Positions 73 to 29,647 of a stretch of 36,379 bases of DNA are shown one piece after another. Position numbers and translations under genes: made by a program. Within the stretch, counting starts at the first letter, position 1. Each line of letters opens with the position of its first letter. The stretch is from an uncultured Treponema sp. (GTDB lineage Bacteria > Spirochaetota > Spirochaetia > Treponematales > Treponemataceae), in assembly GCA_946061765.1 (NCBI GenBank), contig CAMGTC010000002.1, positions 1 to 36,379 of the forward strand, given 5' to 3'. The notes beneath the pieces were generated by a model. It was not told the origin of the DNA. It worked only from the letters and a program-made list of their open reading frames with translations, and did not search any database.

Positions 73-675
73 ATGATCGCTTTCCATTTTCCAAGATTGG
101 CTCTGTATTTTTGTTTATTTACCTGCGCACTCATAATTGCAACTACAAGAACGTTCCTTGCAATTTCAACCCTGGAAGAACAGATTCCCCTTGTATTGAA
201 AATTGGTCACTGGATTTGCCGTGAGAACTTTGTCTGCGGTTTCTTCACTACCCTAATGCTCTGTGCTTCACTTTTACTGTTCTGCAAAATGCATGTAAGC
301 AGGTCTCAGGAAGTAGCTGCCAGATTCTGTCTTGATAGAATGACCCAGGAACTGTTTGATATTGACCAGCAGATTGCCCGTAAAGAAGTAACAGAAGAAG
401 AAGGCGAAGTCTTAAAAGAAAAAGTTCGGAACCAGATAGACCATTACAGCTCTATGGATGGTTCTGCAAAATTCCTGTTGGGAACAATGGGCGCATTTAC
501 CGTATTATATATTATTGCTGTTGGAGGAGGCGTTGCCGTAGGAGTTCTGGACAGAAACATGTACTGGAAAGATGCCCTGGATCAATATGTAATGCTTTCA
601 AGCGGATACCTGGTACTGTTTGTAGTTCCTCTGTTTCTTACTTCTCTTGGATTTAAAACAACGAAGGCAAACTAA
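73..675 (+). CDS. FlhA/FHIPEP-family transmembrane-region protein, truncated (no N-terminal TM helices, no cytosolic C-terminal domain); possibly a gene fragment
   Basis: 200 aa ORF. 'IATTRTFLAI...ENFVCGFFTTLMLCASLLLFCKMHVSRSQEVAARFCLDRM...DIDQQIARKEVTEEEGEVLKEKV...SSMDGSAKFLLG' follows FlhA 'ASTRLIL...[53 protein letters not shown]...EEARxRR...GSMDGASKF'. In-frame TAG at 49-51 upstream. Confidence 0.62.
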   Translation: MIAFHFPRLALYFCLFTCALIIATTRTFLAISTLEEQIPLVLKIGHWICRENFVCGFFTTLMLCASLLLFCKMHVSRSQEVAARFCLDRMTQELFDIDQQIARKEVTEEEGEVLKEKVRNQIDHYSSMDGSAKFLLGTMGAFTVLYIIAVGGGVAVGVLDRNMYWKDALDQYVMLSSGYLVLFVVPLFLTSLGFKTTKAN

Positions 676-684
676 GTGATTGCT

Positions 685-731
685 TGCCTAATGACTTTCA
701 GCACAGTCTTTGTGAATTGAGTCATTAGGCA
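685..731. terminator. Bidirectional hairpin between convergent genes
   Basis: Perfect 12-bp arms TGCCTAATGACT (685-696) / AGTCATTAGGCA (720-731) in the 77-bp gap between convergent stop codons; further imperfect pairing inside the loop. Confidence 0.7.
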
Positions 732-752: not shown

Positions 753-3074
753 CTAGAAGTCATCTTCGTAATCATAATCATCTATGAAGTTCTTGATTAC
801 TTTTTTGTATTCCCTTGGATAATGAACTTTCATATACATTTCCCACCAGGCCATCAGCGTGTATGAAAGTGCATGAGATTTATTGAATGCGTAACCTGCG
901 AATGGAATCAGAATTTCGAAGATTTCAACAGCTTGTTTTTCTGTTACTATTGCCTTCTGTACGGCTCCTGAAACAAAATCCTCTTTTCGATTCATGAGAA
1001 CATCAGGCTTTTTCTTTCCTAAAGCGCGGCGGAACATATCTGCTGCTCCAAGGGTATAACCTGCTATGTTTTGTGCAATCTGCATAATCTGTTCCTGATA
1101 TACAGGAAGACCATAGCTTTCATTTAATATGTTTCTGCAACCTGGGAAATCATATCTGTTACGACAGCCTTCCTTTGTTTCTATAATTGTTGGAATGTAA
1201 TCCATTTGTCCAGGCCGATACATAGTATTCATAAGAACAAGGTCAGAGAAGACTTCAGGTTTGAATTGTTTTAGAATCTTTTTCATTCCTGGGCTTTCAA
1301 ACTGGAAGACATCTGTTGTGCTGCCTTTTGCGAATGCTTCTATTGTGCTTTCGTCCTCTAAAGGAATTGATTTGTAATCAAACTCAACCTTTTTGTTCGT
1401 TGCTATTTCATCTGAAAGCTGCTTGAGTTTCGTCAGTTGCTTCAAACCGAGTAAATCATTTTTATAAAGGCCGACGAATTCCAGAATATCAAATGTATAT
1501 TCTGAATATAACCAGTTGGTTTTCTCATCCTTCAGAACAGGAACATATTGAGAAGCTGAATTGTTTGTTACGATGTATCCGCTTGCATGTAGCCCTTTGT
1601 TGCATTTTACGCTTTCCAGACAGCAGGCGATTTTTATAAGTTTTTCATTCTTTTTGTCACGGAAAAATCCCTGAAGTTTAACTCCATCCCAATGGGGTAT
1701 TATGTCATTGTCGTAAATATTTGACCTGCTATCTAGAAGTCTTGAGAGAGATAATCTTGGAGTGTAATTGTTAACAATTATTGTTTTAATCTTTTCAATT
1801 TCTTCGTCAGCGTAATTAAGGTATTTCCCAGCTATTTTAAGAGACTGCCAGCACTTTAATCTTCCATACGATATAATTCGAATAACGCTTCCGCTACCGT
1901 ATTTTTCTTTTAGATGATTAATAACTTCGTCTAAGCGTTCATAGTCATAATCAATATCAAAATCAGGATAGCAAAGTCTCAAAGGACTTAAAAAGCGTTC
2001 ATACAAAAGCCCATGTTTTAAAGGATTTACATTTGTAATTTCAAGCAGGTATGATACAAGGGAACCTGGTGCACTTCCTCGCCCTGGCCCATGTTCGATT
2101 CCGTTTTGAGAACACCAGGATACAAGTTCATGATGTAAAAGGAATACTTTCTCCCAATGATGGGAGACAATATCGTTCACTTCATATTCTAGTCTGGCAA
2201 TGGCTGTATTTATATCTTCAAACTCGTTGGCCTTTGATTCGAGTCCTTCATAACCCAGAGCTCTAAGCGTTTGTTCTGCATTGTCAAATTCTGGAAGACT
2301 GTCCAAAAGTCTTTCATGTGCTTCTGGTGTTGTGAAATAGTTTTCAGGGAAGATGAATGAAATCTGTTCTTCAATGTGATGAAGATTTTCTAAGAGTTCG
2401 GGATGATCAATTTTTTCTAAGAACGGGAGAATCTCTGTGCCATCGATGAAGTAATGTTTACTTTTTATATCTTCCGGATTTTTAAGATAAAGTCTCATAG
2501 CCGCAAGTGCATCAGCATCTTCCTTTTCAATAAATCTAATAGGACTTGTGATTACGCATTTTGTCGTATCGAGTTTTTGAGCGATTTCAGGATGAGCCCC
2601 CAAATCTGAAAAATCAATTTGCGTATAGAGGTTATCGCTGAATAAATCTTGAAGACCTTTATTAGAATAGAGCGCTGTGCAAACAAAATGAGAAGCTTCA
2701 TTTTTTGTGAGCGATAGTTCAGTTACGGTAATCGGGCAGTTATTCGCTTCCTGAATATCAAGTGAATGCCTGCAAAGAATTTTATATGCTTCAAAATCCT
2801 TGCAAAGAAGATTCACTTCGTTATTTCCAAATGCGATTTTCTGTCCGACTATCGGCTTGATATTATTGTGTTTACAAAGCAGGTAAAACTCAATCACTCC
2901 GCTAAGGGTTCTGTCCGTAAGGGCAAGAGCCTTCATATTCAAAGACTTTGCTTTTTTTACAAGCTCTGGAGTACGGGCAATACTCTCCCCTATTGAAAAA
3001 TCAGACATTACATCCAGAGGAATATATTTGCTCTCAGGGATTCCTTCCGGGCAATCAAAAGTATAAATATCCAT
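753..3074 (-). CDS. Short DnaE-like C-family DNA polymerase (PolIII alpha-like), lacking C-terminal beta-binding/OB regions; PHP domain degenerate
   Basis: 773 aa. Motifs GPGRGSAPGSLVSYLLEITNVNPL, LCYPDFDIDYDYERLDEVINHL (catalytic DxD), NDLLGLKQLT, LPVYQEQIMQIAQNIAGYTLGAADMFRRALGKKKP, FAGYAFNKSHALSYTLMAWWEMYMKVHYP, then stop. SD GAGGTG upstream of the ATG. Confidence 0.9.
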   Translation of the reverse strand: MDIYTFDCPEGIPESKYIPLDVMSDFSIGESIARTPELVKKAKSLNMKALALTDRTLSGVIEFYLLCKHNNIKPIVGQKIAFGNNEVNLLCKDFEAYKILCRHSLDIQEANNCPITVTELSLTKNEASHFVCTALYSNKGLQDLFSDNLYTQIDFSDLGAHPEIAQKLDTTKCVITSPIRFIEKEDADALAAMRLYLKNPEDIKSKHYFIDGTEILPFLEKIDHPELLENLHHIEEQISFIFPENYFTTPEAHERLLDSLPEFDNAEQTLRALGYEGLESKANEFEDINTAIARLEYEVNDIVSHHWEKVFLLHHELVSWCSQNGIEHGPGRGSAPGSLVSYLLEITNVNPLKHGLLYERFLSPLRLCYPDFDIDYDYERLDEVINHLKEKYGSGSVIRIISYGRLKCWQSLKIAGKYLNYADEEIEKIKTIIVNNYTPRLSLSRLLDSRSNIYDNDIIPHWDGVKLQGFFRDKKNEKLIKIACCLESVKCNKGLHASGYIVTNNSASQYVPVLKDEKTNWLYSEYTFDILEFVGLYKNDLLGLKQLTKLKQLSDEIATNKKVEFDYKSIPLEDESTIEAFAKGSTTDVFQFESPGMKKILKQFKPEVFSDLVLMNTMYRPGQMDYIPTIIETKEGCRNRYDFPGCRNILNESYGLPVYQEQIMQIAQNIAGYTLGAADMFRRALGKKKPDVLMNRKEDFVSGAVQKAIVTEKQAVEIFEILIPFAGYAFNKSHALSYTLMAWWEMYMKVHYPREYKKVIKNFIDDYDYEDDF

Positions 3075-3134: not shown

Positions 3135-4631
3135 TTATTTTGCAGCTTCACGAAGTTTTTCCAGTACCTTTACCATGGCAAAGGTATCAAGTTCACAGTA
3201 GCGCAAAAGGTGTTCACGCCATTTCTCAAGTTCTTCTTTATCCATTTTCTGCATTGCCATGAAAGTATTGCTTGCTTCTCCACCGTTATGAACGCCTTCA
3301 AGGTTATGATAATTCAAACTTGGATCATCTGGATAAAGTGCTGGGAGTACATATTTAATGGAATAAGAGCCCTGCATTTCCTTGGTGTAGTACCAGCGTT
3401 TCTGGAACGGAATCATAATGTCCTTGATGTTATCGTGAATATTCATCAAGTGGCCTTTTAAATCTGGATATAAGGCAGCCAGTTCTTTGATACGTCCTTT
3501 TTCAAATCCCATAAAATATGCGGTTGTACAAACATTAAGAGGAATATCTTTACATAGTTGTTCTGCAATTTGTCGGCGAGGGTCGCTTCCAGGATAAGCA
3601 AGACATTCTTTATGTTTTAATTCTCCACCTTCTTTTTCAATGTAATGTAGTGAATATTGGAATACTACATGATGATATGGAGATGAGTTGTCATACATAG
3701 GGATTGCCGGATTGAAGGATTCAAAATCCAAAAAGTAAAGCGGATAAGATAGCGTGCCTACAAAGTTCTTTATTTGTTTTTTATCTATTTGTGGCGGAAG
3801 ATTCTGTACTTCAACTTCTACCTGTTGTAAATATTTTCCTTTCAAAGCTCCGGCATTATACAACTGTTCAAAAGTGATGAGCCCTTCATCATAGAGACTC
3901 TGCTTTTTATTTTTTCGAAGACTTGCAATTTCCCAAACAGTAGGTTCTTCTGATTCTGGCATATCAACCGCACAATGTGTCCAGTATCCGCACTCATATG
4001 GATCCGAACACTGACCACCAACGTTACATTCTGGTTCTGTTTTGCTCTTCAGATATTCACGGAACTTCTTGATATTCTCTTCTACTTCCGTGAGTTTTGA
4101 TTTTGCAGTCTCTGTTAAATCTACAATCTTAAAGAGTTTATCCAGTTCAAGTTCACCGTGACGTACATAAGATGTATCTATATGAACAAGACATACTTTT
4201 TGTACATCATAGCCTAGCTTTGTCAGCACGTAATATTGGTATGATACATCATGCTCATAAATCCAATGAACGCTGGTAGAACTTTTTACTTCGTAGAGTT
4301 CAACCTTTTTGTTTCCAAGATTTTTGAGAATATCAACGCTGCAGAAACAACCGTCATAGCTGAATGAAGCTTCGCAGATATTCTTTACCCCTTTATCAAT
4401 TAGCTCTTGAGTAGCAGGAATCATATCCCCAAGCTTTTCTGAATATGGAACTTCTGTATAATCTCCAAAAAGTCCCATTGCAAGGTCTCCGACATCATTT
4501 CCTGTTGAAAGCACGGCCTGATTTACTACGCTATCATCGAACTCATCAGGAAGATGTTCTTTAAGCCAGAGAATCTTTGGACACTGAATACAAGAGCAGT
4601 AACGCGATTTTGAAAAGTGCTGAATGGACAT
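3135..4631 (-). CDS. DUF2779-type protein: Cas4-like (RecB-nuclease/Fe-S-type) N-terminal region plus DEDD exonuclease-like C-terminal region
   Basis: KSRYCSCIQCPKILWL start, KKVELYEVKSSTSVHWIYEHDVSYQYYVL (PD-(D/E)XK-like ExK), CNVGGQCSDPYECGYWTHC cysteine cluster, YFLDFES and LLRYCELDTFAMVKVLEKL exonuclease-like motifs. Confidence 0.75.
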   Translation of the reverse strand: MSIQHFSKSRYCSCIQCPKILWLKEHLPDEFDDSVVNQAVLSTGNDVGDLAMGLFGDYTEVPYSEKLGDMIPATQELIDKGVKNICEASFSYDGCFCSVDILKNLGNKKVELYEVKSSTSVHWIYEHDVSYQYYVLTKLGYDVQKVCLVHIDTSYVRHGELELDKLFKIVDLTETAKSKLTEVEENIKKFREYLKSKTEPECNVGGQCSDPYECGYWTHCAVDMPESEEPTVWEIASLRKNKKQSLYDEGLITFEQLYNAGALKGKYLQQVEVEVQNLPPQIDKKQIKNFVGTLSYPLYFLDFESFNPAIPMYDNSSPYHHVVFQYSLHYIEKEGGELKHKECLAYPGSDPRRQIAEQLCKDIPLNVCTTAYFMGFEKGRIKELAALYPDLKGHLMNIHDNIKDIMIPFQKRWYYTKEMQGSYSIKYVLPALYPDDPSLNYHNLEGVHNGGEASNTFMAMQKMDKEELEKWREHLLRYCELDTFAMVKVLEKLREAAK

Positions 4632-4654: not shown

Positions 4655-5599
4655 TTATAATTTGATATAAGAACCTTCGAAAGCATAATAGACAAACTGC
4701 ATTATAGTATCTATTACAGATAGATTCTTATTTTTTGCATTCTGCAGGAATTCTGCCTTTTTAGTCTGATATCCTTCAATGTATTTCTTGGCAATTTTCA
4801 CCTCATCAGATAGAAAGTGGTTCATAATAAAGCCATAATTACTATCCTTCCAGCATAGATACATAGAAAAACTCTGATCCATGTTAATAGGCCCGTTGCA
4901 CATTTCATAGGCATCATCATCAATATTTTTAATTTTTTTAGAGAAGATGACAGAGAAATTATCGATTACCATTTCTGGTGCAATATATGGTTCCAGATCC
5001 AGATCTCCGCTAGGGAAGAAGTTCAGAACTTCTGATTCATCAATTTTCAAAAATTGAGCCCAGTCTTTTGGTGTTGGCTTATAAGGTAATTCGCCAATTG
5101 CCGACATATAATCCTGCATAAATCCGTAGAAGTATTTTTCTCTATCAGCTGCTGTAATACCCTCTGGAACTTCAACATTCTTTGCAGTTTTGTATGAGGC
5201 ATGTTCTGCCATTGCCTGAGATAACAGATAAGGATAATGAACTTCAGGAGCAGGTTCATCATAACAACTTTCCTGATTTTTGAAGAATTGCGATAAGGGA
5301 TTAAACAAGATTTTGAGATTATCTTTTGTAATGGAATTCTGAAATAGTCTCTTTTCTGATTTGAGCACTTCTTTCATCATGTTGTCATGAATTTCATATT
5401 CATCAGGAATGTAATCTCCAATATCATCTTCATCGAGCCAGATCATTCCGCAATTTGAGCATTCATACTGTTCTCCATCGAAGTATATTTCTTCACAACC
5501 ACACTGGTCACAGCGTTTACCTTTTAAATGCCCATTGAAATCACTCATATCGAAATCATCTTCAAAGTCATCTTCTATTTCATCATCATAAAAGTCCAT
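4655..5599 (-). CDS. Acidic N-terminus plus zinc-ribbon protein of unknown function
   Basis: CDQCGCEEIYFDGEQYECSNCG zinc ribbon (CxxC...CxxC) after a D/E-rich N-terminus; TATAAT (5621-5626, minus) and AGGAG upstream; 23 bp from the DUF2779 gene. Confidence 0.65.
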   Translation of the reverse strand: MDFYDDEIEDDFEDDFDMSDFNGHLKGKRCDQCGCEEIYFDGEQYECSNCGMIWLDEDDIGDYIPDEYEIHDNMMKEVLKSEKRLFQNSITKDNLKILFNPLSQFFKNQESCYDEPAPEVHYPYLLSQAMAEHASYKTAKNVEVPEGITAADREKYFYGFMQDYMSAIGELPYKPTPKDWAQFLKIDESEVLNFFPSGDLDLEPYIAPEMVIDNFSVIFSKKIKNIDDDAYEMCNGPINMDQSFSMYLCWKDSNYGFIMNHFLSDEVKIAKKYIEGYQTKKAEFLQNAKNKNLSVIDTIMQFVYYAFEGSYIKL

Positions 5600-5681: not shown

Positions 5682-6602
5682 TTATTCATCACTTCCTTTC
5701 TTAAAGGACATTGTCTTCGGATTATAAGTGAGATCTACTGTACCAGTCCATCCATTTAGGTTCTTTACAATGTTAAATTGTGCTTCTTCCTCTTTCTCTC
5801 TGCTTCGATTAAGTAGAATAATCATATCTGCCATGCTAGGAATGATCATATATTTTTTGAAATCTTGTAATGAAGGTTCTGTATCCGATTCTGCAGGGGG
5901 AAGTTCTATTTCTAATATAATTGGTATATGCTGCTCCACTGCAAACTTTTTCAAGTTTTCTAGCAACGATTCGAGATTGTTTCTATATTCCTCTTTCTCA
6001 GAATCAACAAGTTCTTCAAACAATTCAAAACCATTTATAATAATTAACTGAACCTGATTCTTGTCAATCATAAGTTGTGTTTTCCATGCAAATGTATTAA
6101 AACTACTGTTAGGTTCGTTAATTAGATAAATAGGTGATTCCCATAAAACTTCAGCTGATTTATTGATTTTTTCACAGTCTGAAACCTTTAACATCCCTGA
6201 GCGAATTTTCATCATAGATACGCCAGAATTAATAGAGAGTAAGTGTCCTCCAAATGAAGTTTCTTCTGTACAGCCTAAACTTATATAACCGACAGGTATT
6301 TTTTTGTTTAATGCAAGTTGATTTAGAAGACTTAATGCAAATGCCGTTTGTCCAAGTGAAGACCTGGCGGCAATAACGATCAAATCGCCTCTGTGTAAAT
6401 CCAGTCCACAAAAGCCTGTTTCTAAAAAATCTGAATTATTTGTTTTAGATTTGAATCGTGAATCAATAGATTCTATTGTGTTTACCATTATATTTTTTAT
6501 AGACTTATAAAAATCTGAATCTTCCTGTTCTTCCTTTCCTTTCAAGAAATCAAACATACTTATTTCAAGATCAATATCTTTATTTTCATTTTCGTCTTCC
6601 AT
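5682..6602 (-). CDS. DnaB-C/RecA-fold protein with degenerate Walker A and B (predicted pseudo-ATPase)
   Basis: DFLETGFCGLDLHRGDLIVIAARSSLGQTAFALSLLNQLAL resembles DnaB 'TGYxxLD...DLIIVAARPSMGKTTFAMNL'; GWTGTVDLTYNPKTMSFKK resembles the DnaB C-terminus 'RNGPIGTVRLTFN...RF'. No DnaB N-terminal domain. GGAGG SD. Confidence 0.75.
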   Translation of the reverse strand: MEDENENKDIDLEISMFDFLKGKEEQEDSDFYKSIKNIMVNTIESIDSRFKSKTNNSDFLETGFCGLDLHRGDLIVIAARSSLGQTAFALSLLNQLALNKKIPVGYISLGCTEETSFGGHLLSINSGVSMMKIRSGMLKVSDCEKINKSAEVLWESPIYLINEPNSSFNTFAWKTQLMIDKNQVQLIIINGFELFEELVDSEKEEYRNNLESLLENLKKFAVEQHIPIILEIELPPAESDTEPSLQDFKKYMIIPSMADMIILLNRSREKEEEAQFNIVKNLNGWTGTVDLTYNPKTMSFKKGSDE

Positions 6603-15360: not shown

Positions 15361-16182
15361 CTACTCCAAAGTCTTCGCTACACCATTAACAATTGTCTCA
15401 TGCACAAAGACAATCTGACCTTTTTTATTCTTATAAAAATCGCTGCTTAATCGCTTAAAATATCCACGACGGAAATGTGGTATTACTACCCCATTTTCTG
15501 CTCGTTCTCCGGCTTCTACTACTTTTTCAGAGGTATTTAGATAATGATTATTCTGAGTTTTTATATCATGCGGAGCACCATCAACAAGACATTCTGGAAA
15601 ACAGTAGATGTATGAAATGAGATTTAATGCCAACTTTGTAATTTCATTGATTTCCGGGTTCGTATAAACGATGGATTTTTTATCAGCTATTTCATTGCTG
15701 GAAAGATGATATTGTTCCATTCCGTGGTTTACAAAGATTCGCAGTTCGTTTGTTTCATCAAAAATTGAATATGCAAAAACATATCCCTGACTTACTTTTG
15801 GAAGGTGTAAGCAGATTCCAAAATTTACTCCAGTTGTTAAATTTTCAAGGCTATTGTCTTCATTAAGAGTGACAGTAGACCCATTTTCACGGATATAGGT
15901 TTTAATTCCTTCTAGGTCACGAATTTCAGGTTCTTTAAGAAAGTCAAATAATGAGGAATCTTTTACATAAACATGGATAAGTTCGCCTTTCAGGTCACGA
16001 AGAAAAAGCTGTATAGCAGTTGCATCATCCATGCTCATTGCAACATTGGCATAGAACCAGTCCTGGAACATAGCAGGAGTTTCTGCTGTTGGCTTGCCTG
16101 TCTCAGAATTGTCTCTGCAGAACATTCTGTATGCTTCGTAGAATCTGCCAAATGTTTTACCATAGGTTACATGTTTGCTCAT
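15361..16182 (-). CDS. Conserved-looking protein of unknown function within the DISARM-type operon
   Basis: 273 aa; 4-bp overlap with the upstream PLD gene, 6 bp from the downstream gene; C-terminal PHFRRGYFKRL...VFVHETIVNG motif. Confidence 0.6.
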   Translation of the reverse strand: MSKHVTYGKTFGRFYEAYRMFCRDNSETGKPTAETPAMFQDWFYANVAMSMDDATAIQLFLRDLKGELIHVYVKDSSLFDFLKEPEIRDLEGIKTYIRENGSTVTLNEDNSLENLTTGVNFGICLHLPKVSQGYVFAYSIFDETNELRIFVNHGMEQYHLSSNEIADKKSIVYTNPEINEITKLALNLISYIYCFPECLVDGAPHDIKTQNNHYLNTSEKVVEAGERAENGVVIPHFRRGYFKRLSSDFYKNKKGQIVFVHETIVNGVAKTLE

Positions 16183-16883
16183 TTTACAACCTCGAATACC
16201 TTTAGTCGTTTCAGATTCTTTAAAAGCTCTTCAATTTCCCTTGCTTTCTCTTCGCTTTCAATATAAATTCCAGCTTCGATGTTTCCTTCCATACCATGAT
16301 AAGAAAGATTAGCAGAAGAAATCAGAGATTTGCATTCATCGACCACAATCATCTTTGCATGGAGTGCAGCCATTTTGTCATCTTCGGGCTGAATGTATTT
16401 GAAAATGCGAATAAATTGGTTACCTGTATTATAGGCTATAAGTCGTTTAAGGACTTCTTCATGCTTTTCAAAATCATTCAAATAAAGATTTATATAAACG
16501 CCATGTAGAGATTTTTGAATCAGAAGCTCCTGCATTTCGTCAAAATAATCAGATACGGAATAACCGGTTAGAGTAATACTCTTTTCGGCCTGATTAAGCA
16601 TCGTTTTTACTTCGTCCCAAATTTTTGTTTGTTTTAGCAAAAAGGAAGTTGGACCGGTGAAAACAATTTTGCTTTTATCTGATTTCTTGTTGTTATAAAT
16701 TTGCAGACTTATATTAAGGATTTTATAAAGCTCTTCTTCGTTACATGAAGGAAAAGCCTTTTTGAGTTCTTCTATTGATTTTGAGAACACACTTTCATTC
16801 GTCGTTAGATTATACGCTTTAATCGACTGCTCAATCTCATACGAAAGATAGTTGTTCTTTACATCCTCTTTAATCATCTGCAA
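16179..16883 (-). CDS. drmC: DISARM-type phospholipase-D domain protein DrmC
   Basis: LHAKMIVVDECKSLISSANLSYHGMEGNIEAGIYIE (single HxKx4D...S.N motif); directly downstream of drmB. Confidence 0.8.
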   Translation of the reverse strand: MQMIKEDVKNNYLSYEIEQSIKAYNLTTNESVFSKSIEELKKAFPSCNEEELYKILNISLQIYNNKKSDKSKIVFTGPTSFLLKQTKIWDEVKTMLNQAEKSITLTGYSVSDYFDEMQELLIQKSLHGVYINLYLNDFEKHEEVLKRLIAYNTGNQFIRIFKYIQPEDDKMAALHAKMIVVDECKSLISSANLSYHGMEGNIEAGIYIESEEKAREIEELLKNLKRLKVFEVVK

Positions 16884-16889
16884 ACCTTA

Positions 16890-18665
16890 TTAAAAGAAGT
16901 CTTTGAAATATGCCATTTCTTCGTGATCTGGAAGTGGAACTACAAGAGAGCGGTCCAGCATTCTATTTCCATTTTCACAGGCTGTTTCAGAAATCATACA
17001 GCAGGCATGACAAGCTGCACCATTGATAGTTTCAGAATCTGGTTCTTTATCAAGACATTCTGGATCTGTAGTACAGGTTAATGCATTCTCCAGAGCACCT
17101 TTTAAAAGGCCAAAGAATTTTTCTTTTTTACCAAGCTGAACAAGACCCCCTAGAGATCCTTCCTTATCGGCTGCTCCTGTGTAAATTAAAAGACCATGCA
17201 TATCTTCATTTGCATAAATACGTTCATGCATAGAAGATGAAGAGTATCCTGCCTGCATTGCCATTTCTTTAATAAGAATATGAGCCAGTGTGTGGAGCAG
17301 TACATAGACGGCATTTCGAGCTTTCATGTTCTGCCAGCCTCTAGACTTTGTATATTCATTATATGACTGAGCAAAGTTCGTTGAACGCTCTGAAACTTTT
17401 TTTATATTTAACCATTGTTTAAGATAATCCTCGTTCAGAACAAGAAAGAATCCTTCACCATTAATTTCTGTCGCCGGGAGCCATTTGTCATCATCATCAA
17501 TAGAAAGACGGCAAGTATGAGCATCATCACTTGATTCTGGCTCAGGTGAAACAACTCGTGTATATCCTAAAAGAACCATTACTTCTCGTAATCTATGAAT
17601 TAAAATCATTCTCGAGAAAAACTTATCAAGACCAGAATACAATTCTTCCTCGGTTGCCTTAAAATATGGATATTCTTTTTTAAGAGCAACTTTCTGATGA
17701 TTAACAATTGTCTGATATTCAAGTTCTTTTAGTTCTTTCTTTTCTTTTGTATCAGAGTCCATTGTTGCAAGAGCTTTATCAAACTGTTCCCGAGTATATC
17801 CTTTTGGTTTGAAATAACTGTCGACAACAGTTTGCAGTACCATGTTTTTTGAGGTATCATCAGGCATTTTACGAGCTAAGTCTATTTGTTGAATATGAGC
17901 CATAATTAAATCATAAATCTCATCATTCCAAGGCGGAATTGAGATAGCACTTCTTGTTACTCCAAAGTAAACATTTGAAGCACCCCTCTGAGAACCAATA
18001 GCATCACAATTACATTTTTTGAATTTCTCACCTGGCTTGTGTGGAAATCTGCCTGTACATGTGAACTTTGCAGTTAATGCACCAAGCATTGAACGGCTTG
18101 CCCCACATTTTGTGCATTTTACCCACAGTTCACCAAGAGTTGAATTCTTTCTTGATGTCTGAAGAACTAAATCTCCATCGCAGTTACCACCACTATGAAC
18201 CCATTCGCTCCATGGAAAATCATCCATATGTCCGTTCGGACAGATGGTAATAAATCTTGCTGGGAAAGCCTTGAAAAACTTTGATTTACATTTCGGACAG
18301 ATAACTTCTCCTGGAAATTTTTTATATGTTTCTAAATCAAAATTCCCGTCTTTTCGAATATCAAAAAGATTCTGACATTTTGGATTGGAACAGACATGAT
18401 AAGAAGGAAAGGAAACGGCAGGTAATCCATATGGCTTACCTTCTTTATTCTTTGAATCTTTCGTATTTGGTTTGTAGAAATGATGAACATGAAGGTAGTT
18501 AGCCAGACGTGCATCAAATATTTCATCACCTTTACTGTTCTGATCCCAGTATTTTGTATCAAGAATAGTCAAAGAGTCATTAATTGAATCCAGAATAGCT
18601 CCTGGTCCAAACGTTGTAATAAACTGATTAGGTCTAACTTCTGCAAGTTTTTCATTAAAAGCCAT
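16890..18665 (-). CDS. drmB: DISARM DUF1998 protein DrmB
   Basis: RPNQFITTFGPGAILDSINDS N-terminus, multiple CxxC zinc clusters, C-terminal HTLAHILIKEMAMQAGYSSSSMHERIY...CHACCMISETACENGNRMLDR. Confidence 0.88.
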   Translation of the reverse strand: MAFNEKLAEVRPNQFITTFGPGAILDSINDSLTILDTKYWDQNSKGDEIFDARLANYLHVHHFYKPNTKDSKNKEGKPYGLPAVSFPSYHVCSNPKCQNLFDIRKDGNFDLETYKKFPGEVICPKCKSKFFKAFPARFITICPNGHMDDFPWSEWVHSGGNCDGDLVLQTSRKNSTLGELWVKCTKCGASRSMLGALTAKFTCTGRFPHKPGEKFKKCNCDAIGSQRGASNVYFGVTRSAISIPPWNDEIYDLIMAHIQQIDLARKMPDDTSKNMVLQTVVDSYFKPKGYTREQFDKALATMDSDTKEKKELKELEYQTIVNHQKVALKKEYPYFKATEEELYSGLDKFFSRMILIHRLREVMVLLGYTRVVSPEPESSDDAHTCRLSIDDDDKWLPATEINGEGFFLVLNEDYLKQWLNIKKVSERSTNFAQSYNEYTKSRGWQNMKARNAVYVLLHTLAHILIKEMAMQAGYSSSSMHERIYANEDMHGLLIYTGAADKEGSLGGLVQLGKKEKFFGLLKGALENALTCTTDPECLDKEPDSETINGAACHACCMISETACENGNRMLDRSLVVPLPDHEEMAYFKDFF

Positions 18666-21600
18666 TAGTTATTCTCCCATAAAAAAACAGTTGCACTCTG
18701 TTCAACATCACGCATTGAGTTCAATGTTGGTTTTTCTTTATAACCAGTTGGTTCAAGTCCATAATATGACATCAATCTCTGCTGAGTATCTTTTTTATAT
18801 CTTGTGTGATAAATCAGATTTCCCTGGGCAGCAAGCTCTTTCCAGGTTGAAATAAAACTGGTTAGTGCTTTTTCAGCTTCGTCATGAGCTGTATAATCAA
18901 CAATATCAACTCTTTTAAGAATTGCCTGAACTGTATTTTGTATTTCTGAATCAGATAAATCTAAAATGGCAGCAGCATTAGATGCTGTTTTTTCATACAT
19001 AAGACGTATTAACGCAATGACAAGAGCGTGTAAATCCCTGTCTATTGCTCTGGCTGCAAATGGAGTTGAAGTTGTTCCTTCTACATAGCGGTACATCTGA
19101 GAATGGAATCCGGCAAAATTTTCATAGTTAGACAAGTCTCTTGGACGGTATGGATTATATAGAGAAAAAATAAGACCTGGAGACTGTCGTCCAACACGGC
19201 TTGTTGCCTGTATATATTCGGCATTCTGTTTTGGTTGTCCAAGAACAACCATAAGTCCCAACCTGTCTACATCCATTCCAACTGCAATCATATTGGTTGC
19301 AATTACGACATCATAACAATCCTGTCGTTCAGCATCTTTCTTGTATGATTTAGCAAGGTTTTCCAGAATTTCAGAAATTTCGTAAGATTTTATACGAGAT
19401 GTGATTTCTTTCTTGCTATAAACGCTCATATAACGGTGAGTCTGATAGCCATACTTATCTATAAGATGATCAATTCGTTTAACAATGTCATCATCAAGAA
19501 GGCGCACTGCACCTCCTAATTCTCGGATACTGTTGAAATAACCAATTAAAGTATAATACGGATCGATATAATCTTCATATTCTGGAGTTTTTGACAACTC
19601 ACTTGCTTTCTGTAAAATAGCAGAATACAAACGGATTAATGTTGTTTTTACAGATTGTCCTGGAACGCAGACTCCCACATATTCACGGAAAGGCTTTTGT
19701 TTTTTTGAAACCATTGCAGAAAGTATACTTTCATCTGCGGTTGCAGGCGGAGTTTCAGGTAAATCAATTTCTTTCATAAAGAATGAATCTCTGATATCCG
19801 TACCACTAGGAGGGAATTGGGCAAATTCAGTTCGTCCATACAAAGTTTTGATCTGCTCGCCTGCATTCTTTATAGTAGCAGTCGAAACAATATATTTAGG
19901 CTTATATCCATCTATCGTACAAAGTTGTTCAATTGCAGTTTCGTATCCACCATATATTGTTCCTAAAGGACCTGTAATCAAATGCAGCTCATCCTGAATA
20001 ATTAACTCCGGCGGATAAAAAGGTCTGCACTCTGTGACTTCTGCTGCTGGAAGTCCTGGCGCTTTATTGTGACTGTTAGCATGGTCTTCTCCCACGGCAA
20101 GATACCCATGTCGTGAACACTTTCTGTTTGCATGTCCAAAGAGAAGACCTACTTTTTCATCCCACGGTAGTCGTGCAAATTTATCTACTGTTGAAATAAT
20201 GACGGTAGGACATTTGCGGTAAATCTCTCGGTCTACTAGATAGACTGGCAAAGATACTTTTTTAGCTTCTGTATAAAGACAATCTGGATTTGAACAGTAA
20301 ATCTTAATGGTTTCGTCATCCGTATTTACATGATAATTATCAGCTGTAAGAGGTCTACCGCAATAAGGACATTTTACGAGCTGGCTTGAAACCATTCTCA
20401 TAAACTTTTTCTTCTTAAAATCGTCCTTATATTCTGTAAAATCGTTTGGAGTAAGCTGCCCTCCGACCCAGAATCCAATTGAAATACGTTCAGTACCAAA
20501 AATTGGAGTTCCTTTCTTTTCATAAGAGTTGCGGATAGTTTCCATTGCAATTATGAGTTTTAAAAGACGGTCTCTCTGTTGTGTTGTGAGCAGTCTCAAT
20601 GTATAACGCAGAAATACTGTAACTCCACCATCTTTATTATATGTGTCATTTTCATTTGCAGATAAACGGCGAAGTCCCACGGTAAAAGCTATCAAACCTA
20701 AATATGCCTCAGTTTTACCACCACCAGTCGGGAAGTAAAGCAAATCTACTATTTCTCTATCATCTGAAGATTTATCTGCTATACCTGTAAGATTAAGAAG
20801 AATAAATGCAATCTGGAAAGGTCTCCATTCCAGAAGATGACGTGGTTTCCCTTCTGAATCTAGCATAACTTCATTTTTAATGTTATTTCCCTGTATTTTT
20901 GCATATTCTGCAATTGCACGCTGACGATACATTGATTCGTTCATAAAAAGAAAAGCTTTAAATGCCTTTTCATCAGAAGAAAGCAGTTCAATTCCCATTC
21001 GCATTCTTTCTAATGCTTTATTACATTTAGCAATAATAGCATTGTATGTTTCCTGGTTAATTCCTTCTGAAGGAAGTTTATTTACCCATTTCTCGTACAT
21101 AGAAAGTAGTTTATTAAGCTGCTCAAAAGTCCATTCTTTATTATCTGGGAATTTCATTTTATAAGCAGAGAAAGAATATTTTTCTATTTCTTCAATTTCA
21201 GCTTTCACACCTGCAATTTCATAATCTGGAATAAAGCTGCTGCGAACTTCGTTAATAGCGGTTCCTGTGCATTTGTAATTCCATACCGCAGCACACTGTC
21301 GGCCTCTGGCAAACACTGGCCGGCTCTTATAATAAAACTCGTCATCAAGTTCATTCTTACGGCAAATGTATTCGGCAATAAAACTGTCAGCACCATCAAT
21401 TCCATTCAGAATGAGTTCTGTCTGGTACATTGTATTCTGCCATTCAGGAACTTTTGCCCCCGGTTTATCAGCATTCTGAACATATACAGTTACCATCCTG
21501 TAGCCGGTTTCGAGTATTCTGGTAATTATATATAGAAAGATTTTTGGATTTGTCTTTAATGGAACACGATGGGTTGTAGCGACTGAATCAAAATCTATTT

Positions 21601-22117
21601 CTATTGTTTCTGTATTCTGTTTTCTGTAATATTCAAATTTTTTAGGCTTCTTTTTTGAATCCTTATCCTGGTCTGCTCCTTCAGTTTCCTGAGCTTCCTG
21701 TGTGGCAGGAAGAGCAAGTTCAACAGCATTATATGAGCCCCAGTTTACTGTCGCCTGAATTTTTTTTGTTGCTTTATGAACATAGCATGAAACACCAAGA
21801 GAACTTGGCTTCTTAAATTTTTTTCTCTGAACATCATCTGTTTCTTCATAAATAACTTCAGATTCACCGTCTTCTGTCTGATGTTCATCATCTGCTAAGG
21901 TTTCAATATCCTGTCCGCGGTCAAAATCTTCTTCTTCAGAAAAATCTGTATCACTCGGAAACAATATCCCCGCGATATAAGTCTTACTTGGATCTTCGGT
22001 AAGCGGTTTACCGTCGGCACGCGGGCCGATTAAATCTTCACGTACTGCATCTAAAATCTGCTGGCGTACCTGGGCCTGCTTAAAATTATTGTAAAGCTTT
22101 TTTTCCTGCTCTGTCAT
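18665..22117 (-). CDS. drmA: DISARM helicase DrmA
   Basis: VDLLYFPTGGGKTEAYLGLIAFTVGLRRL (Walker A), LIIQDELHLITGPLGTIYGGYETAIEQL (DExH), VSTATIKNAGEQIKTLYGR, NMIAVGMDVDRLGLMVVLGQPKQNAEYIQATSRVGR. AAGGAG SD. Confidence 0.9.
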   Translation of the reverse strand: MTEQEKKLYNNFKQAQVRQQILDAVREDLIGPRADGKPLTEDPSKTYIAGILFPSDTDFSEEEDFDRGQDIETLADDEHQTEDGESEVIYEETDDVQRKKFKKPSSLGVSCYVHKATKKIQATVNWGSYNAVELALPATQEAQETEGADQDKDSKKKPKKFEYYRKQNTETIEIDFDSVATTHRVPLKTNPKIFLYIITRILETGYRMVTVYVQNADKPGAKVPEWQNTMYQTELILNGIDGADSFIAEYICRKNELDDEFYYKSRPVFARGRQCAAVWNYKCTGTAINEVRSSFIPDYEIAGVKAEIEEIEKYSFSAYKMKFPDNKEWTFEQLNKLLSMYEKWVNKLPSEGINQETYNAIIAKCNKALERMRMGIELLSSDEKAFKAFLFMNESMYRQRAIAEYAKIQGNNIKNEVMLDSEGKPRHLLEWRPFQIAFILLNLTGIADKSSDDREIVDLLYFPTGGGKTEAYLGLIAFTVGLRRLSANENDTYNKDGGVTVFLRYTLRLLTTQQRDRLLKLIIAMETIRNSYEKKGTPIFGTERISIGFWVGGQLTPNDFTEYKDDFKKKKFMRMVSSQLVKCPYCGRPLTADNYHVNTDDETIKIYCSNPDCLYTEAKKVSLPVYLVDREIYRKCPTVIISTVDKFARLPWDEKVGLLFGHANRKCSRHGYLAVGEDHANSHNKAPGLPAAEVTECRPFYPPELIIQDELHLITGPLGTIYGGYETAIEQLCTIDGYKPKYIVSTATIKNAGEQIKTLYGRTEFAQFPPSGTDIRDSFFMKEIDLPETPPATADESILSAMVSKKQKPFREYVGVCVPGQSVKTTLIRLYSAILQKASELSKTPEYEDYIDPYYTLIGYFNSIRELGGAVRLLDDDIVKRIDHLIDKYGYQTHRYMSVYSKKEITSRIKSYEISEILENLAKSYKKDAERQDCYDVVIATNMIAVGMDVDRLGLMVVLGQPKQNAEYIQATSRVGRQSPGLIFSLYNPYRPRDLSNYENFAGFHSQMYRYVEGTTSTPFAARAIDRDLHALVIALIRLMYEKTASNAAAILDLSDSEIQNTVQAILKRVDIVDYTAHDEAEKALTSFISTWKELAAQGNLIYHTRYKKDTQQRLMSYYGLEPTGYKEKPTLNSMRDVEQSATVFLWENN

Positions 22118-22202
22118 ACCGCTTTCTCCTTTAATATCTTACAAAGATTGGTCTTCCACGTTTTTCATCACCATAGCATTTATATTTAGTGTTCAAGTCC
22201 TC

Positions 22203-24005
22203 TCAAGATATTTTTCCATGTTCTTTAATATCCTGTATTCTGAACAACTTATAATAATCACTTTGAGGATTTGGATAGCCTAATTTTACGATTTTGCCAG
22301 AATCAGCATAAATTTCTTCTGACTGGTTTACTGTACAAAGCCATGAATTTCCTTCACGGTCATACAATACAATTCTTGAAGGATTAATCCAGACTTCTTC
22401 ATCTGTTAGAGCTCCAGGTCTGCTACCCATGCGAACATTATACAAATGGGTCATCTTTATCCATTCTAAATGTTCTGCAGATTTAACATATCCAAACATC
22501 ATATAGCGGGAATTATGTTTTTCCATATCTATTTGAGATGGATATTCAGATGGTTCTGAAAGAATTACATTCTCACGTGAATACTCTTTTCCATCCGAAA
22601 GTTCATTCTTATTAGCAGATTCAAGAATAGTCTTTATCTGCTCATCAATTTCATTCTGTTTTAGTTTAGAAAGATTAAAAGGAACAACAGTAAGTCTTAG
22701 TCCAAATTCTCTTTTTATTTCTTCATAAAAGAATGCAGGTAATTCTTTTGTAAATGATTCCGTAGCCGGATAAATTAAAACGAGCCTTGGATGAACATCA
22801 TAAAAGTAACCTTCTCCTAATGAATATTTCTGCCCATAAGCATAAAGCTGATACATATCTGAGATACTCATAAAGTAGTTTTTATCGGGTTTGTTCTCGT
22901 CAATAATTTTCCACTTGGTATCAAGAATTATGTTTTCATAAGAAGTAAAATCAGATTTATCAGCAGATTCAACAAAAATATCAGGCCTTATCTGAAACTT
23001 TCCGTGTTTGTTGTGCTTATCAACAAGATAGTATTTTCTGTGCTGGGTATAAACATTATAACCGGGATGTCTTCTGGTATAACTTTTAAATAAAGCTGCT
23101 ACATAGCTTTCAAACAATTTTTCTGCACTAAATAAAAGAGACTGGTTTACATGATTTCCACTGAATGTTGTAAAACCTCTGTTTAGTAAGAACTGACTGC
23201 TCCAGTGCATTAGGTTGTCGTAACTTGCAAAAAGGCGGTTAGCACTAAGGCTTATCTGTAAGTCTGCATTTATATTGGTGCTTTCTGGTATTTCACTGAA
23301 AACTGCAAGCAGCTTGTAGATACGGGCTTTGTTTGAATTGCTGTATGTGAGCTGAACAAGTTTATTTAGAGTAGATACAATAAGCCTGTTCTGTGGAATA
23401 TTTTCCAGGTATTTTGCATATTCAATCTGAAGATGAGTTTTATCTGTAAGATTTCTGCTTATCTGTTTTTGAACTAGCAGCCTACCTTTTAAGAAGCCTG
23501 AATTTTCCTGAATCTTTGTATAATTCTTTTTAAGACCAGTACGCAGAAGGTTTTCTGTTTCAGATAGATAGTTAGAAATATATACTTCAAGAATCGGAAA
23601 GTTTTCTGATGTAGAAAGATTTGCATTCTGGAAAGACTTTGAATCAGAATCACGAAAGTTCTTTAGCATGTGCAGGAACACTTTTCGGGATTTTTTTATA
23701 TCCTGGTCAGAACGGCTGGAACATCCAAAGATTTTTGGTAAAATTTCTATAGTGCAGCCGTCTTTTGTCTGAATTGTACCGACATAGCGGCTGCATTTTA
23801 TATACTGTCTGCCCTTTTTTTTATGAACAGACATTACCTGTTCAAGGTCATCTGATGTTTTATTTTCAAGAATAAAGTCCCAAAGATTACTAAAGGTTAT
23901 TTCTGAAAGTTCAACCTCGTCTTCTTTGTCATTTAGAAAGACTTTTTCATCCTTTTTTATGAGAGTACCAAATTCATGAATAACAACCAGACTCTGCTTT
24001 TTCAT
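22203..24005 (-). CDS. McrC-like restriction nuclease (R2.LlaJI/McrC type) with C-terminal extension
   Basis: CSRYVGTIQTKDGCTIEILPKIF; RPDIFVESADKSDFTSYENIILDTKWKII PD-(D/E)XK; about 100-residue extension RYMMFGYVKSAEHLEWIKMTHLYNVRMGS... . Confidence 0.83.
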   Translation of the reverse strand: MKKQSLVVIHEFGTLIKKDEKVFLNDKEDEVELSEITFSNLWDFILENKTSDDLEQVMSVHKKKGRQYIKCSRYVGTIQTKDGCTIEILPKIFGCSSRSDQDIKKSRKVFLHMLKNFRDSDSKSFQNANLSTSENFPILEVYISNYLSETENLLRTGLKKNYTKIQENSGFLKGRLLVQKQISRNLTDKTHLQIEYAKYLENIPQNRLIVSTLNKLVQLTYSNSNKARIYKLLAVFSEIPESTNINADLQISLSANRLFASYDNLMHWSSQFLLNRGFTTFSGNHVNQSLLFSAEKLFESYVAALFKSYTRRHPGYNVYTQHRKYYLVDKHNKHGKFQIRPDIFVESADKSDFTSYENIILDTKWKIIDENKPDKNYFMSISDMYQLYAYGQKYSLGEGYFYDVHPRLVLIYPATESFTKELPAFFYEEIKREFGLRLTVVPFNLSKLKQNEIDEQIKTILESANKNELSDGKEYSRENVILSEPSEYPSQIDMEKHNSRYMMFGYVKSAEHLEWIKMTHLYNVRMGSRPGALTDEEVWINPSRIVLYDREGNSWLCTVNQSEEIYADSGKIVKLGYPNPQSDYYKLFRIQDIKEHGKIS

Positions 24006-24008
24006 GGG

Positions 24009-25697
24009 CTATTTTTCCAGATGTACAAGGAACTTTTTAGCAGCTTCTTCTGAAGTTACATCTTTTAACGCATCGTTCAATTTGTAATAAGATTTTTCTT
24101 CATTAAAGTCATCAGTATCGCCCACTGCATTTTTTGCATCTTCATCAAGAACATAGAAGTAATCAGTAGAATGAGAATCTGCATCTTTCAGCTCATCAGT
24201 TTCATTAAGAACCCTGCGGATTTTGTCTGTCTCGTTATAAAAGTATTCTTCCAAAAGAGGAATAATGTTTTCTTTCATAACATTAAGAATTTCAAGGTCT
24301 TTGTTCTTTCCTATAAAGTATGAATGACCAATCTGATGATCCTTATCAAGAAGTGCACGAATACGATTATTAATGTTACGTAATATGTTTTCTGCATTTT
24401 CGTTTTCGTTCTTATCATGAAGACATTTATAATCAGGTAAAAGCTCTTCAAACTTAAATCGGCGGCGTAAAGCTGAATCCAAAAGCTGAATTGAACGGTC
24501 AGCAGTATTCATGGTTCCAATAATCATAAGGTTTGCAGGAACTCCAAAATCTTTTTTGCTGTAAGGCAGTTTTGCAGTCATTTCATATTCGGCACCAAGC
24601 CGTTTTGAACTTTCAACAAGAGAAATCAAATCACCGAATACAGAAGAAACGTTTGCACGGTTAATTTCATCAATACAAAGAAGTACTACCTTCTTATTAT
24701 CAACGGCCTCTTTCATTTTAAGTTTGCGGTTTGCTTCAGAATCTTCAAGACATTTATCTAAAGATGTATAACCTGCAAGAAGAGCTGCTTGTTTACAAGC
24801 TTGATAGAAAATTCCTGGTTCAACACGATACTGAACATCGGTCTGCCCTTCTGGAATAAAAGGTTTTAAGCCCTCTACAAATTCTTCGTAACTGAATGAC
24901 TGATGGAAAGTGGTAACAAAACGATTTTCTTTTGAAATTTTGCTTATATAATCGTTTTGCATTTTGTAGGTTTTTCCTGTACCTGGAGGTCCATAAAGAA
25001 TAAGAGGTTGTTTTTCTATTTTTATTCCAGGTTTAAAACTTAAAAAATAATTTCCTTCGGTATCTTTTGTAAATAAGATTTTATCATTTCCATATTTTAT
25101 AATATCTTCTTTTGTGATTGGTTTCCCAGATTCAATTCCAAGACGGAATCTAATATATTTGCCAAGTTCTTTGTTACCTTCTTGTTCATTATCCTTTGTT
25201 GTTTCTAGAGCTTGACCATTTTCATCTTTTTGAGCTCTTGTAAATATAAAAGTTTTTCCATCATCTGTTTTTATTGAAAATTTTTCTGGACTTGGTGGAT
25301 AAAAATCAGATTCGTATATATCCTGTGGTAATGCTATATAAGCTTCATTTCCTGTTCTGGACTCACTTCTTAGGGTTACTCCATCAGGTGAAAAGCCCCA
25401 TCGGAAACAATATCTAATTTTATCCCCATCAAGTAATGATACTTCAAAAGACTGTTCTTTATTTTCTCCAGTGAGATTTGGATACTCGTGTTGAATGATA
25501 GAAATTAAATCTTTCAATCCACGTATATCAAATTGAATGCACTGATCTGCATGTCCACTATTTTTATTATCTTCTGAAGTAAAGGTACTAATCTGAAATA
25601 AATCAGGTTTTGTAGAATATGCAGTTATTTTCTCATCATGTTTAGAAAAATTTCTATCCATCTTATTAAAATCATCTTTTGTATTAACAAATGACAT
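24009..25697 (-). CDS. McrB-like AAA+ GTPase/ATPase (R1.LlaJI/McrB type)
   Basis: PLILYGPPGTGKTYKMQND, VVLLCIDEINRANVSSVFGDLISLVE, NLMIIGTMNTADRSIQLLDSALRRRFKFEEL. Confidence 0.87.
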   Translation of the reverse strand: MSFVNTKDDFNKMDRNFSKHDEKITAYSTKPDLFQISTFTSEDNKNSGHADQCIQFDIRGLKDLISIIQHEYPNLTGENKEQSFEVSLLDGDKIRYCFRWGFSPDGVTLRSESRTGNEAYIALPQDIYESDFYPPSPEKFSIKTDDGKTFIFTRAQKDENGQALETTKDNEQEGNKELGKYIRFRLGIESGKPITKEDIIKYGNDKILFTKDTEGNYFLSFKPGIKIEKQPLILYGPPGTGKTYKMQNDYISKISKENRFVTTFHQSFSYEEFVEGLKPFIPEGQTDVQYRVEPGIFYQACKQAALLAGYTSLDKCLEDSEANRKLKMKEAVDNKKVVLLCIDEINRANVSSVFGDLISLVESSKRLGAEYEMTAKLPYSKKDFGVPANLMIIGTMNTADRSIQLLDSALRRRFKFEELLPDYKCLHDKNENENAENILRNINNRIRALLDKDHQIGHSYFIGKNKDLEILNVMKENIIPLLEEYFYNETDKIRRVLNETDELKDADSHSTDYFYVLDEDAKNAVGDTDDFNEEKSYYKLNDALKDVTSEEAAKKFLVHLEK

Positions 25698-25703
25698 AGT
25701 ATG

Positions 25704-26804
25704 CTACTCCTTTATATTTGCTTCTATTGATTCATAAGGAATCCCTGCAAAAGTTTTAAGAATTGCCTCAAAGATAATTTTAGCACCTTCACATGGAACT
25801 GCCATTCCAATTTGTTTTCGAATGGACTCTTTAGATCCTTCGAAAATATACTCGTCAGGAAATGTTTGGAGTCTTGCTCTTTCCCGATTTGTTAATGCTC
25901 TATTCTCACTCCAGTGATAAATATGAGTTCCTCCACCACCAGAACCCGTAACTGTATAGGCAGGTTTTGTTGGATCAAGTCTTTTATAAATCTGACTTAT
26001 TTTTGCACCTTTTACATTGAGTTTCAAATGCTCTGGTAACTGTGCGGTAAACGCATTTTCTCCCGGCTTTATGTATTTTAGTCTTTCAATAACTTGATTT
26101 GATTGAGATGTAAATTCATTATTTGGAGAATTTTTTTCAATCGGAGGATTATTGATAGCCTCTTCACAAGTTTTCATTTTATACTGTTTAGAAGATGGTA
26201 TCTTAAATTCAAATGGTAAGTCACTTCTAATACCAACAATAATGACTCGATGTCTTGCTTGTGGAATACCATATTCTTCAAATCTATATAGATTTGGATA
26301 TATTTTATACCCTGCTCCTATCATGTCTTCCTTAATTTTTTCAAAGGCTTTTCCTTCATTAGCACTTTTCAAGCCTCCAACATTTTCAGCTAGGAACCAG
26401 TAAGGATGAAATTTATTAAGAACTTTAATACCATAAGAATAAAGCGGACCATACTTTCCTTCAAAGCCTTTTTGTTCTCCTACAACAGAGAAATCATTAC
26501 AAGGAAAACCAAATGCGAGTGCATCTATCTGTGATAGATTTTCGATATTGAGAGTATGGACATCCTGACAAATTACGGTTGATTTTTTTGACTCATCACC
26601 TTTACATATATTTCTAAAATATGTATCACAAGTTGATTTATCAAAATCATTAGCCCATTCATGAACGATTTTATATTCCGGATTCTCTATTTTAGCGTTT
26701 GTAGCTCCCCATGCTAGACCTCCTGGGCCACAAAACAACTCTCCAAGACGGAAAACCTTTGGATCTAATCTGTCTTCTGATTTTTCTATTTTTATTTCTT
26801 CCAT
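25704..26804 (-). CDS. DNA (cytosine-5) methyltransferase, second copy, with PCN motif IV
   Basis: LGELFCGPGGLAWGA, ALAFGFPCNDFSVVGEQKG, WFLAENVGGLKSANEG, GIPQARHRVIIVG, RALTNRERARLQTFPDEYIFEG, IGMAVPC. Confidence 0.9.
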   Translation of the reverse strand: MEEIKIEKSEDRLDPKVFRLGELFCGPGGLAWGATNAKIENPEYKIVHEWANDFDKSTCDTYFRNICKGDESKKSTVICQDVHTLNIENLSQIDALAFGFPCNDFSVVGEQKGFEGKYGPLYSYGIKVLNKFHPYWFLAENVGGLKSANEGKAFEKIKEDMIGAGYKIYPNLYRFEEYGIPQARHRVIIVGIRSDLPFEFKIPSSKQYKMKTCEEAINNPPIEKNSPNNEFTSQSNQVIERLKYIKPGENAFTAQLPEHLKLNVKGAKISQIYKRLDPTKPAYTVTGSGGGGTHIYHWSENRALTNRERARLQTFPDEYIFEGSKESIRKQIGMAVPCEGAKIIFEAILKTFAGIPYESIEANIKE

Positions 26805-26829
26805 CTATAATATCCTTTCTTTTTCCTTG

Positions 26830-26838
26830 ATTATACCA
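26830..26838 (-). promoter_or_regulatory. Extended -10 element TGGTATAAT, candidate internal promoter for MTase2-McrB-McrC-drmABC
   Basis: Minus strand GATGTGGTATAATCAAGG in the 44-bp gap between the two MTase genes; same TGGTATAAT as at 5621-5629. Confidence 0.5.
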
Positions 26839-26848
26839 CATCAAAGTG

Positions 26849-29508: not shown

Positions 29509-29533
29509 ATTCCTTATTTTATTCTAGCACAGA

Positions 29534-29647
29534 TTACACATTTTTGCACCATTTATTTTGAGAAAATTACACGTTTTTGCAAATGCTAAGAATATAGTTT
29601 TACACGTTTTTACAGTGAAAATATAGTTATTTTTACACATTTCCACA
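29534..29647 (-). repeat. Four iterons (minus-strand consensus TGYAAAAAYGTGTAA) at exact 33-bp pitch
   Basis: Copies at 29534-29548, 29567-29581, 29600-29614 and 29633-29647, read from the plus strand as ttacacatttttgca, ttacacgtttttgca, ttacacgtttttaca, ttacacatttccaca. Confidence 0.75.

Follow-up and report, generated by a model that had tools for sequence, protein, structure and literature searches.

Among the C-family polymerases covered in the text of a published survey, the tandem HhH element, (HhH)2, is described as nearly universal (PMC3919608), whereas an inactive PHP domain is reported to be usual in DnaE2, in DnaE3 and in the DnaE1 of alpha-, beta- and gamma-proteobacteria (PMC3919608, PMC3666897), with five of the nine PHP ligands changed in E. 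coli (PMC3666897). The loss of the PHP site alone is thus ordinary, while the loss of (HhH)2 is not. DnaE3 and the E. coli-type DnaE1 have a PHP fold without a metal site and retain (HhH)2 and, mostly, the clamp motif, OB fold and CTD, as the same survey describes them (PMC3919608). DnaE2, of the ImuA-ImuB-DnaE2 mutasome, is an extra, non-replicative DnaE with a disrupted PHP domain. The 'DnaEX' copies are strongly diverged additions beside a normal DnaE, most of which have architectures already known from DnaE1-3, and in one of which a uracil-DNA glycosylase domain replaces the OB fold and CTD, according to that account (PMC3919608).

The locus described here lies on a stretch of 36,379 nucleotides (the window), which is the whole of contig C2 in the draft MAG of a gut Treponema. 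It encodes a 773-residue DnaE (the short DnaE) which resembles DnaE3 and the E. coli-type DnaE1 in its metal-free PHP fold, and DnaE2 and DnaEX in being an additional, diverged copy, but which, unlike DnaE3 and the E. coli-type DnaE1, ends before (HhH)2. The short DnaE is a selected accessory paralogue of Treponematales DnaE1, with an intact palm and a dead PHP domain, carried in defence-type islands of a few Treponema. A targeted literature search found no prior description of a short Treponema DnaE, and none was described in the main text of two C-family surveys searched by word.

Domain architecture and active sites of the short DnaE

Pfam recognised the PHP (51 bits), DNA_pol3_alpha (194 bits) and DNA_pol3_finger (166 bits) domains in the short DnaE and gave no match beyond residue 707. 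Residue 760 aligns to residues 786-787 of E. coli DnaE in solved structures and is followed by a tail of only 13 residues, which places the truncation past the start of the fingers; missing from the protein are the remaining part of the fingers and, after it, the tandem HhH, clamp motif, OB fold and CTD. The preliminary description had stated that the protein stops right after FNKSHALSY, without HhH, clamp or OB regions, in agreement with these limits. Where it had summarised the loss as that of the clamp-binding and OB region, their absence stands, yet the loss is larger, because part of the fingers and (HhH)2 are gone as well. The C-terminal tail (window 753-800) is acidic, has a terminal Phe in two of the four members (DYDYEDDF, ELEEEDF) and loosely resembles the SSB C-terminal tip, although one orthologue (L035) does not conserve it.

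An AlphaFold2 model built from 44 sequences (pLDDT 88.3, pTM 0.85) showed low confidence at residues 111-117 and 766-773 and matched Pol III alpha structures with a query-normalised TM of up to 0.81 (E. coli Pol III alpha), so that the fold up to the cut is confidently predicted to be DnaE-like. The short DnaE is about two-thirds the size of the genome's own replicative polymerase (DnaE1, 1251 aa), with which it shares ~35% identity overall, the PHP-palm-thumb-fingers order, the catalytic Asp triad and the GPGRGS, RR and NKSH motifs. This DnaE1 is among its nearest relatives in the tree and differs in being the replicase, with a full C-terminal part, whereas the short DnaE is a second copy.

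Residues D371, D373, D375, K538, D540, R682/R683, K688, N731, K732, H734 and Y738 and the GPGRGS motif are retained (Table 1), and the polymerase residues checked were kept in all four intact members of the family, with the exception of one Ser-to-Asn change in L035. The view of this protein as a minimal C-family polymerase with an intact palm was therefore upheld. In the alignment with the own DnaE1, which has all nine PHP metal ligands, the short DnaE has none; the loss of the PHP histidines claimed earlier is thus real, but it is not remarkable by itself, being ordinary in other DnaEs. Taken as a C-family polymerase of the DnaE type, the protein has the Pol3 core, with three catalytic aspartates and the basic and NKSH residues, and a PHP domain N-terminal to the palm, recognised by Pfam and modelled like DnaE structures in spite of the missing ligands; it lacks the tandem HhH after the fingers, as the chain stops at the position corresponding to E. 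coli ~786, short of the HhH region.

Table 1. Positions of the short dnaE, its motifs and its neighbours in the window, and of the group B loci
Feature	Position	Strand	Remarks
Stand-alone N-terminal membrane part of FlhA/SctV (FHIPEP) protein	73..675	+	200 aa
Hairpin	685..731		11-bp stem, without T-run; between convergent dnaE and FHIPEP genes
Short dnaE paralogue	753..3074	-	773 aa; PHP fold, palm, thumb and start of fingers, then stop
FNKSHALSY	861..887	-	aa 730-738; last conserved fingers motif before protein end
K-N-D in YKNDLLGL	1455..1463	-	E. coli K553 and third catalytic aspartate D555; here Asp 540
PDFDID	1950..1967	-	aa 370-375; first two catalytic aspartates (E. coli D401, D403)
GPGRGSAPGS	2061..2090	-	aa 329-338; conserved palm-region motif
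Degenerate PHP motif II, ALTDRTLSG	2898..2924	-	ALTDHGNMFG in own DnaE1 (alignment)
Degenerate PHP motif I, LDVMSDFSIGES	2982..3017	-	canonical LHVHSDYSLLDS in own DnaE1 (alignment)
DUF2779 protein	3135..4631	-	weak Cas4-like similarity in N-terminal part; 60 bp upstream of dnaE
314-aa protein	4655..5599	-	CxxC...CxxC zinc-ribbon-like start, no Pfam match; same minus-strand row
DnaB C-terminal (RecA-like) domain alone	5682..6602	-	306 aa; related gene near G064 short dnaE
DISARM set	16179..32266	-	drmC 16179-16883, drmB 16890-18665, drmA 18665-22117, drmMII 26849-28210, drmD 29633-32266
Group B dnaE	L153:6669-9098	-	
Group B dnaE	L179:9614-12064	-	
Group B dnaE	L178:8815-11253	+	

Origin and family placement

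A tree of 46 rows united the four intact copies in a fully supported clade (100%), which grouped with Treponema DnaE1 (SH-aLRT 100), apart from E. coli, Bacilli and phage DnaE. More careful trees placed the short DnaE and its orthologues (group A) in a Treponematales DnaE1 clade (98/100), and a second tree, to which a further truncated family (group B, below) was added, placed group A inside the genus' own DnaE1 clade (95/95), although the test also allowed a placement immediately outside the DnaE1 sequences sampled from the order (p 0.47). The phylogeny that the preliminary description had proposed as a check thus allies the short DnaE with Treponematales DnaE1, in trees made up without DnaE2 sequences. 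Separately, the NCBIfam DnaE1 model scored 545 bits against 293 bits for the error-prone model, far below the 939-bit cut-off of the latter, and no imuA or imuB was recognised among the window genes, which sets the short DnaE apart from DnaE2. The best PHROG match was the phage DnaE family phrog_405, aligned over residues 13-758 with a model length of 1190; phage DnaE proteins are ~27-31% identical to the short DnaE, compared with ~35% for Treponema DnaE1, and form a separate clade. A phage origin was rejected, the best phage matches being ~31% identical and outside the Treponema clade. Group A is, as judged from these sequence comparisons, an old, host-derived paralogue of Treponematales DnaE1 rather than a phage polymerase. 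Descent from a host-lineage DnaE1 is accompanied by the absence of the clamp motif, OB fold and CTD of a DnaE1; since (HhH)2, the clamp motif and the OB fold were looked for and are lacking, the protein is filed as a C-family variant and not as DnaE1, DnaE2 or DnaE3.

Orthologues and purifying selection

When 200 species genomes of Treponema were searched with an N-terminal query, five were found to carry the short DnaE, one of them as a broken copy. Besides the window copy, intact orthologues were found in L033 (771 aa, 86% identical to the window copy), in the isolate T. porcinum ATCC BAA-908 (L034; 772 aa, 66%) and in L035 (764 aa, 67%), and identity among the intact members ranges from 59 to 86%. 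In the fifth copy (L036, genome G064; ~49-50% identity), the coding sequence is broken into two frames and the GPGRG stretch is missing. A second DnaE in G147 was considered as a short copy and rejected, as it extends far beyond NKSH and resembles a normal gene of the DnaE2 type. A contig scan with exact short patterns, the outcome of which depends on the patterns, gave close N-terminal matches only in Treponema/Spirochaetaceae.

The genome being a MAG in 368 contigs, the short gene might be a normal dnaE distorted by misassembly or a frameshift. However, the intact orthologues, four copies in separate species, end at the same place in independent assemblies, including that of T. porcinum ATCC BAA-908, and a complete, normal dnaE is present on another contig (L144). 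The hidden C-terminal half that the preliminary description had considered was not found in this 87%-complete genome, and a split gene with its second half elsewhere was rejected on this ground; the full-length dnaE that it had proposed to look for was found, and its presence means that replication is covered. Because the orthologues share length and end point, the artefact is refuted, retaining a vanishingly small probability.

The omega value of the closest pair (window and L033) was 0.14-0.15, with dS near saturation for the other pairs, and the short DnaE is under purifying selection. The broken copy in G064, with its two frames and missing GPGRG motif, and the rarity of the gene in the genus would suit a functionless relic of a dnaE duplication that is being lost, but this is improbable in view of four intact copies in separate species, the omega of ~0.15, active-site residues that are all kept and a confident predicted fold.

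Neighbouring genes and defence islands

The short dnaE is the last gene of a minus-strand row formed with the DnaB_C, CxxC and DUF2779 genes, with gaps of ~82, 23 and 60 bp. Of this row, only the DUF2779-dnaE pairing occurs elsewhere, in the closest relative (L033) alone. DUF2779 is present in 8 of 39 relatives, lies beside the short dnaE in the window and L033 alone, and was rejected as a fixed partner owing to its absence beside the T. porcinum, G014 and G064 copies; the earlier emphasis on a polymerase paired with a DEDD-exonuclease-like protein could not be maintained for a conserved partnership. The most constant neighbour is instead a stand-alone FlhA/SctV membrane domain (FHIPEP_N, FHIPEP residues ~38-229), found within ~2 kb of the short dnaE in four of the five loci, in varying orientations, the surrounding gene set being otherwise unconserved. 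By a simple estimate from ~0.19 such genes per genome, this would arise by chance with a probability of ~1e-13, or ~3e-10 with the two closest loci merged. Treponema islands contain the same domain repeatedly (L146-L152 and window 73-675; ~250-265 aa in complete copies), in several cases near WYL regulators, AAA ATPases, genes for DnaB_C alone or a DEDD-type exonuclease. Downstream of dnaE, the hairpin noted in the preliminary description is real by folding energy (-21.8 kcal/mol, z -3.1), but an intrinsic terminator was rejected there, as it has no T-run and failed to score as one. Promoter-like sites numbered 22 against 21.4 expected by chance.

Otherwise the window consists of a defence island that contains DISARM, GmrSD-like, AbiU-like and McrBC-like genes. 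Between drmA and drmMII, the DISARM set is interrupted by a pair of McrBC-like genes and another cytosine methylase, and the island edge (32269-36357) encodes a protein of 1362 aa that has a sacsin-type (Hsp90-like ATPase) domain and weakly resembles TmtA. After the short dnaE of G064 come AbiEi/AbiEii and a gene for a WYL regulator, and WYL, FliG_C and FHIPEP_N genes lie upstream of the T. porcinum copy. In the PADLOC analysis, the short dnaE itself matched no known anti-phage defence model, its neighbours being DISARM and others.

The genes for DnaB_C alone that lie close to the short dnaE in both the window and G064, the sporadic presence in 5 of 200 species and an IS110-like gene (from sequence) adjoining the T. 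porcinum copy could also point to an integrated or conjugative element copied by the short DnaE together with a DnaB_C helicase. Such a replication enzyme has a slender chance of being the right explanation: Pfam and PADLOC recognised no integrase, relaxase, primase or terminase in the window, DnaB_C is missing near the T. porcinum and G014 copies, the GC content (37%) is host-like, and the polymerase is host-derived and not phage-like.

A second truncated DnaE family and the possible roles of the short DnaE

Three other Treponema species (G060, G172 and G190) carry the group B DnaE (809-816 aa; 96% and 53% identity within the group), which, like group A, ends at the same point and is a DnaE1 paralogue. 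The two groups thus have genus, truncation point and paralogy in common, and differ in that group B is without a catalytic palm and retains the HLHVHSD motif: PNIDIE or PETGVE replaces PDFDVD, K553 is changed to I or R, NKSH is replaced, and in the PHP domain the HxH pair is kept and the TDH His lost. Between palm and fingers, 19 full-length DnaEs share 90 invariant positions, of which 64 are retained in group A and 40 in group B. By these substitutions, group B has a predicted dead catalytic site and is a putative pseudo-polymerase, and its omega of 0.06-0.08 (G060 vs G172) indicates strong purifying selection. A single clade of groups A and B was neither shown nor rejected (AU p 0.43), and the group B gene was not found in the carrier genomes searched (G000, G014, G064 and G081).

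The reading favoured here, held with middling confidence, is that the short DnaE acts as an accessory polymerase, distributive and without proofreading, which perhaps serves in defence or repair. It is favoured because the catalytic residues are kept in intact members despite 59-86% identity, because the low omega, conserved length, confident fold and a DnaE1 covering replication agree with it, and because of the group A clade placement, the defence context (DISARM; AbiEi/AbiEii and WYL in G064) and the four-gene row; the lack of conservation of the gene set around dnaE, except for FHIPEP_N, counts against it, as does the strong selection on the catalytically dead group B. Such an enzyme would be clamp-independent and without proofreading, and is predicted to be active yet slow, with distributive synthesis made without clamp or clamp-loader contact, and it may fill short gaps or ends left by neighbouring DNA-processing enzymes. 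Lacking part of the fingers and an (HhH)2 element described as nearly universal (PMC3919608), it may nevertheless be too weak for useful synthesis.

The main rival, possible though not probable, is a replisome decoy or inhibitor, a truncated alpha that would bind primer-template or PHP/palm partners without being able to join the clamp, and would either compete with the polymerase when a phage infects the cell or sequester DnaE-directed phage proteins, catalysis being secondary or dispensable. The short dnaE sits in defence islands, and its neighbours and the islands of its relatives hold other stand-alone host-machine domains (DnaB_C, the FlhA membrane part, FliG_C), including a G015 island with FlhB_C, FlhA_C and a FliI/SctN-type ATPase. 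Group B, cut at the same place, dead in the palm and strongly selected, implies that truncated DnaEs in Treponema can be kept for a role other than synthesis. However, group A keeps every catalytic residue, which would be superfluous for a pure decoy, the group B gene was not found in those four carriers, and none of these genes has a known decoy function. The G015 island (L145, G015:C3:1-20000) contains two FlhA_C and two FliG_C genes, all of these flagellar-type domains being stand-alone, and also a MoxR AAA, a VWA (DUF2201), two DnaB_C-only proteins and a WYL regulator.

Implications

It is conceivable, if doubtful, that Treponema repeatedly turned C-terminally cut DnaE copies, both live and dead, into accessory island genes directed against phage replication, together with other stand-alone host-machine domains such as DnaB_C and FlhA. 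If so, C-family polymerases would have a defence role, which was not found in the literature examined. PHP-Pol3-(HhH)2 is treated as a nearly universal C-family core in the survey text (PMC3919608), and here a selected natural version stops before (HhH)2, raising the question of how little of Pol III alpha suffices for DNA synthesis, as the dead group B raises that of the role of a polymerase-shaped protein without synthesis. The T. porcinum isolate provides a sequence-verified source of the short DnaE.
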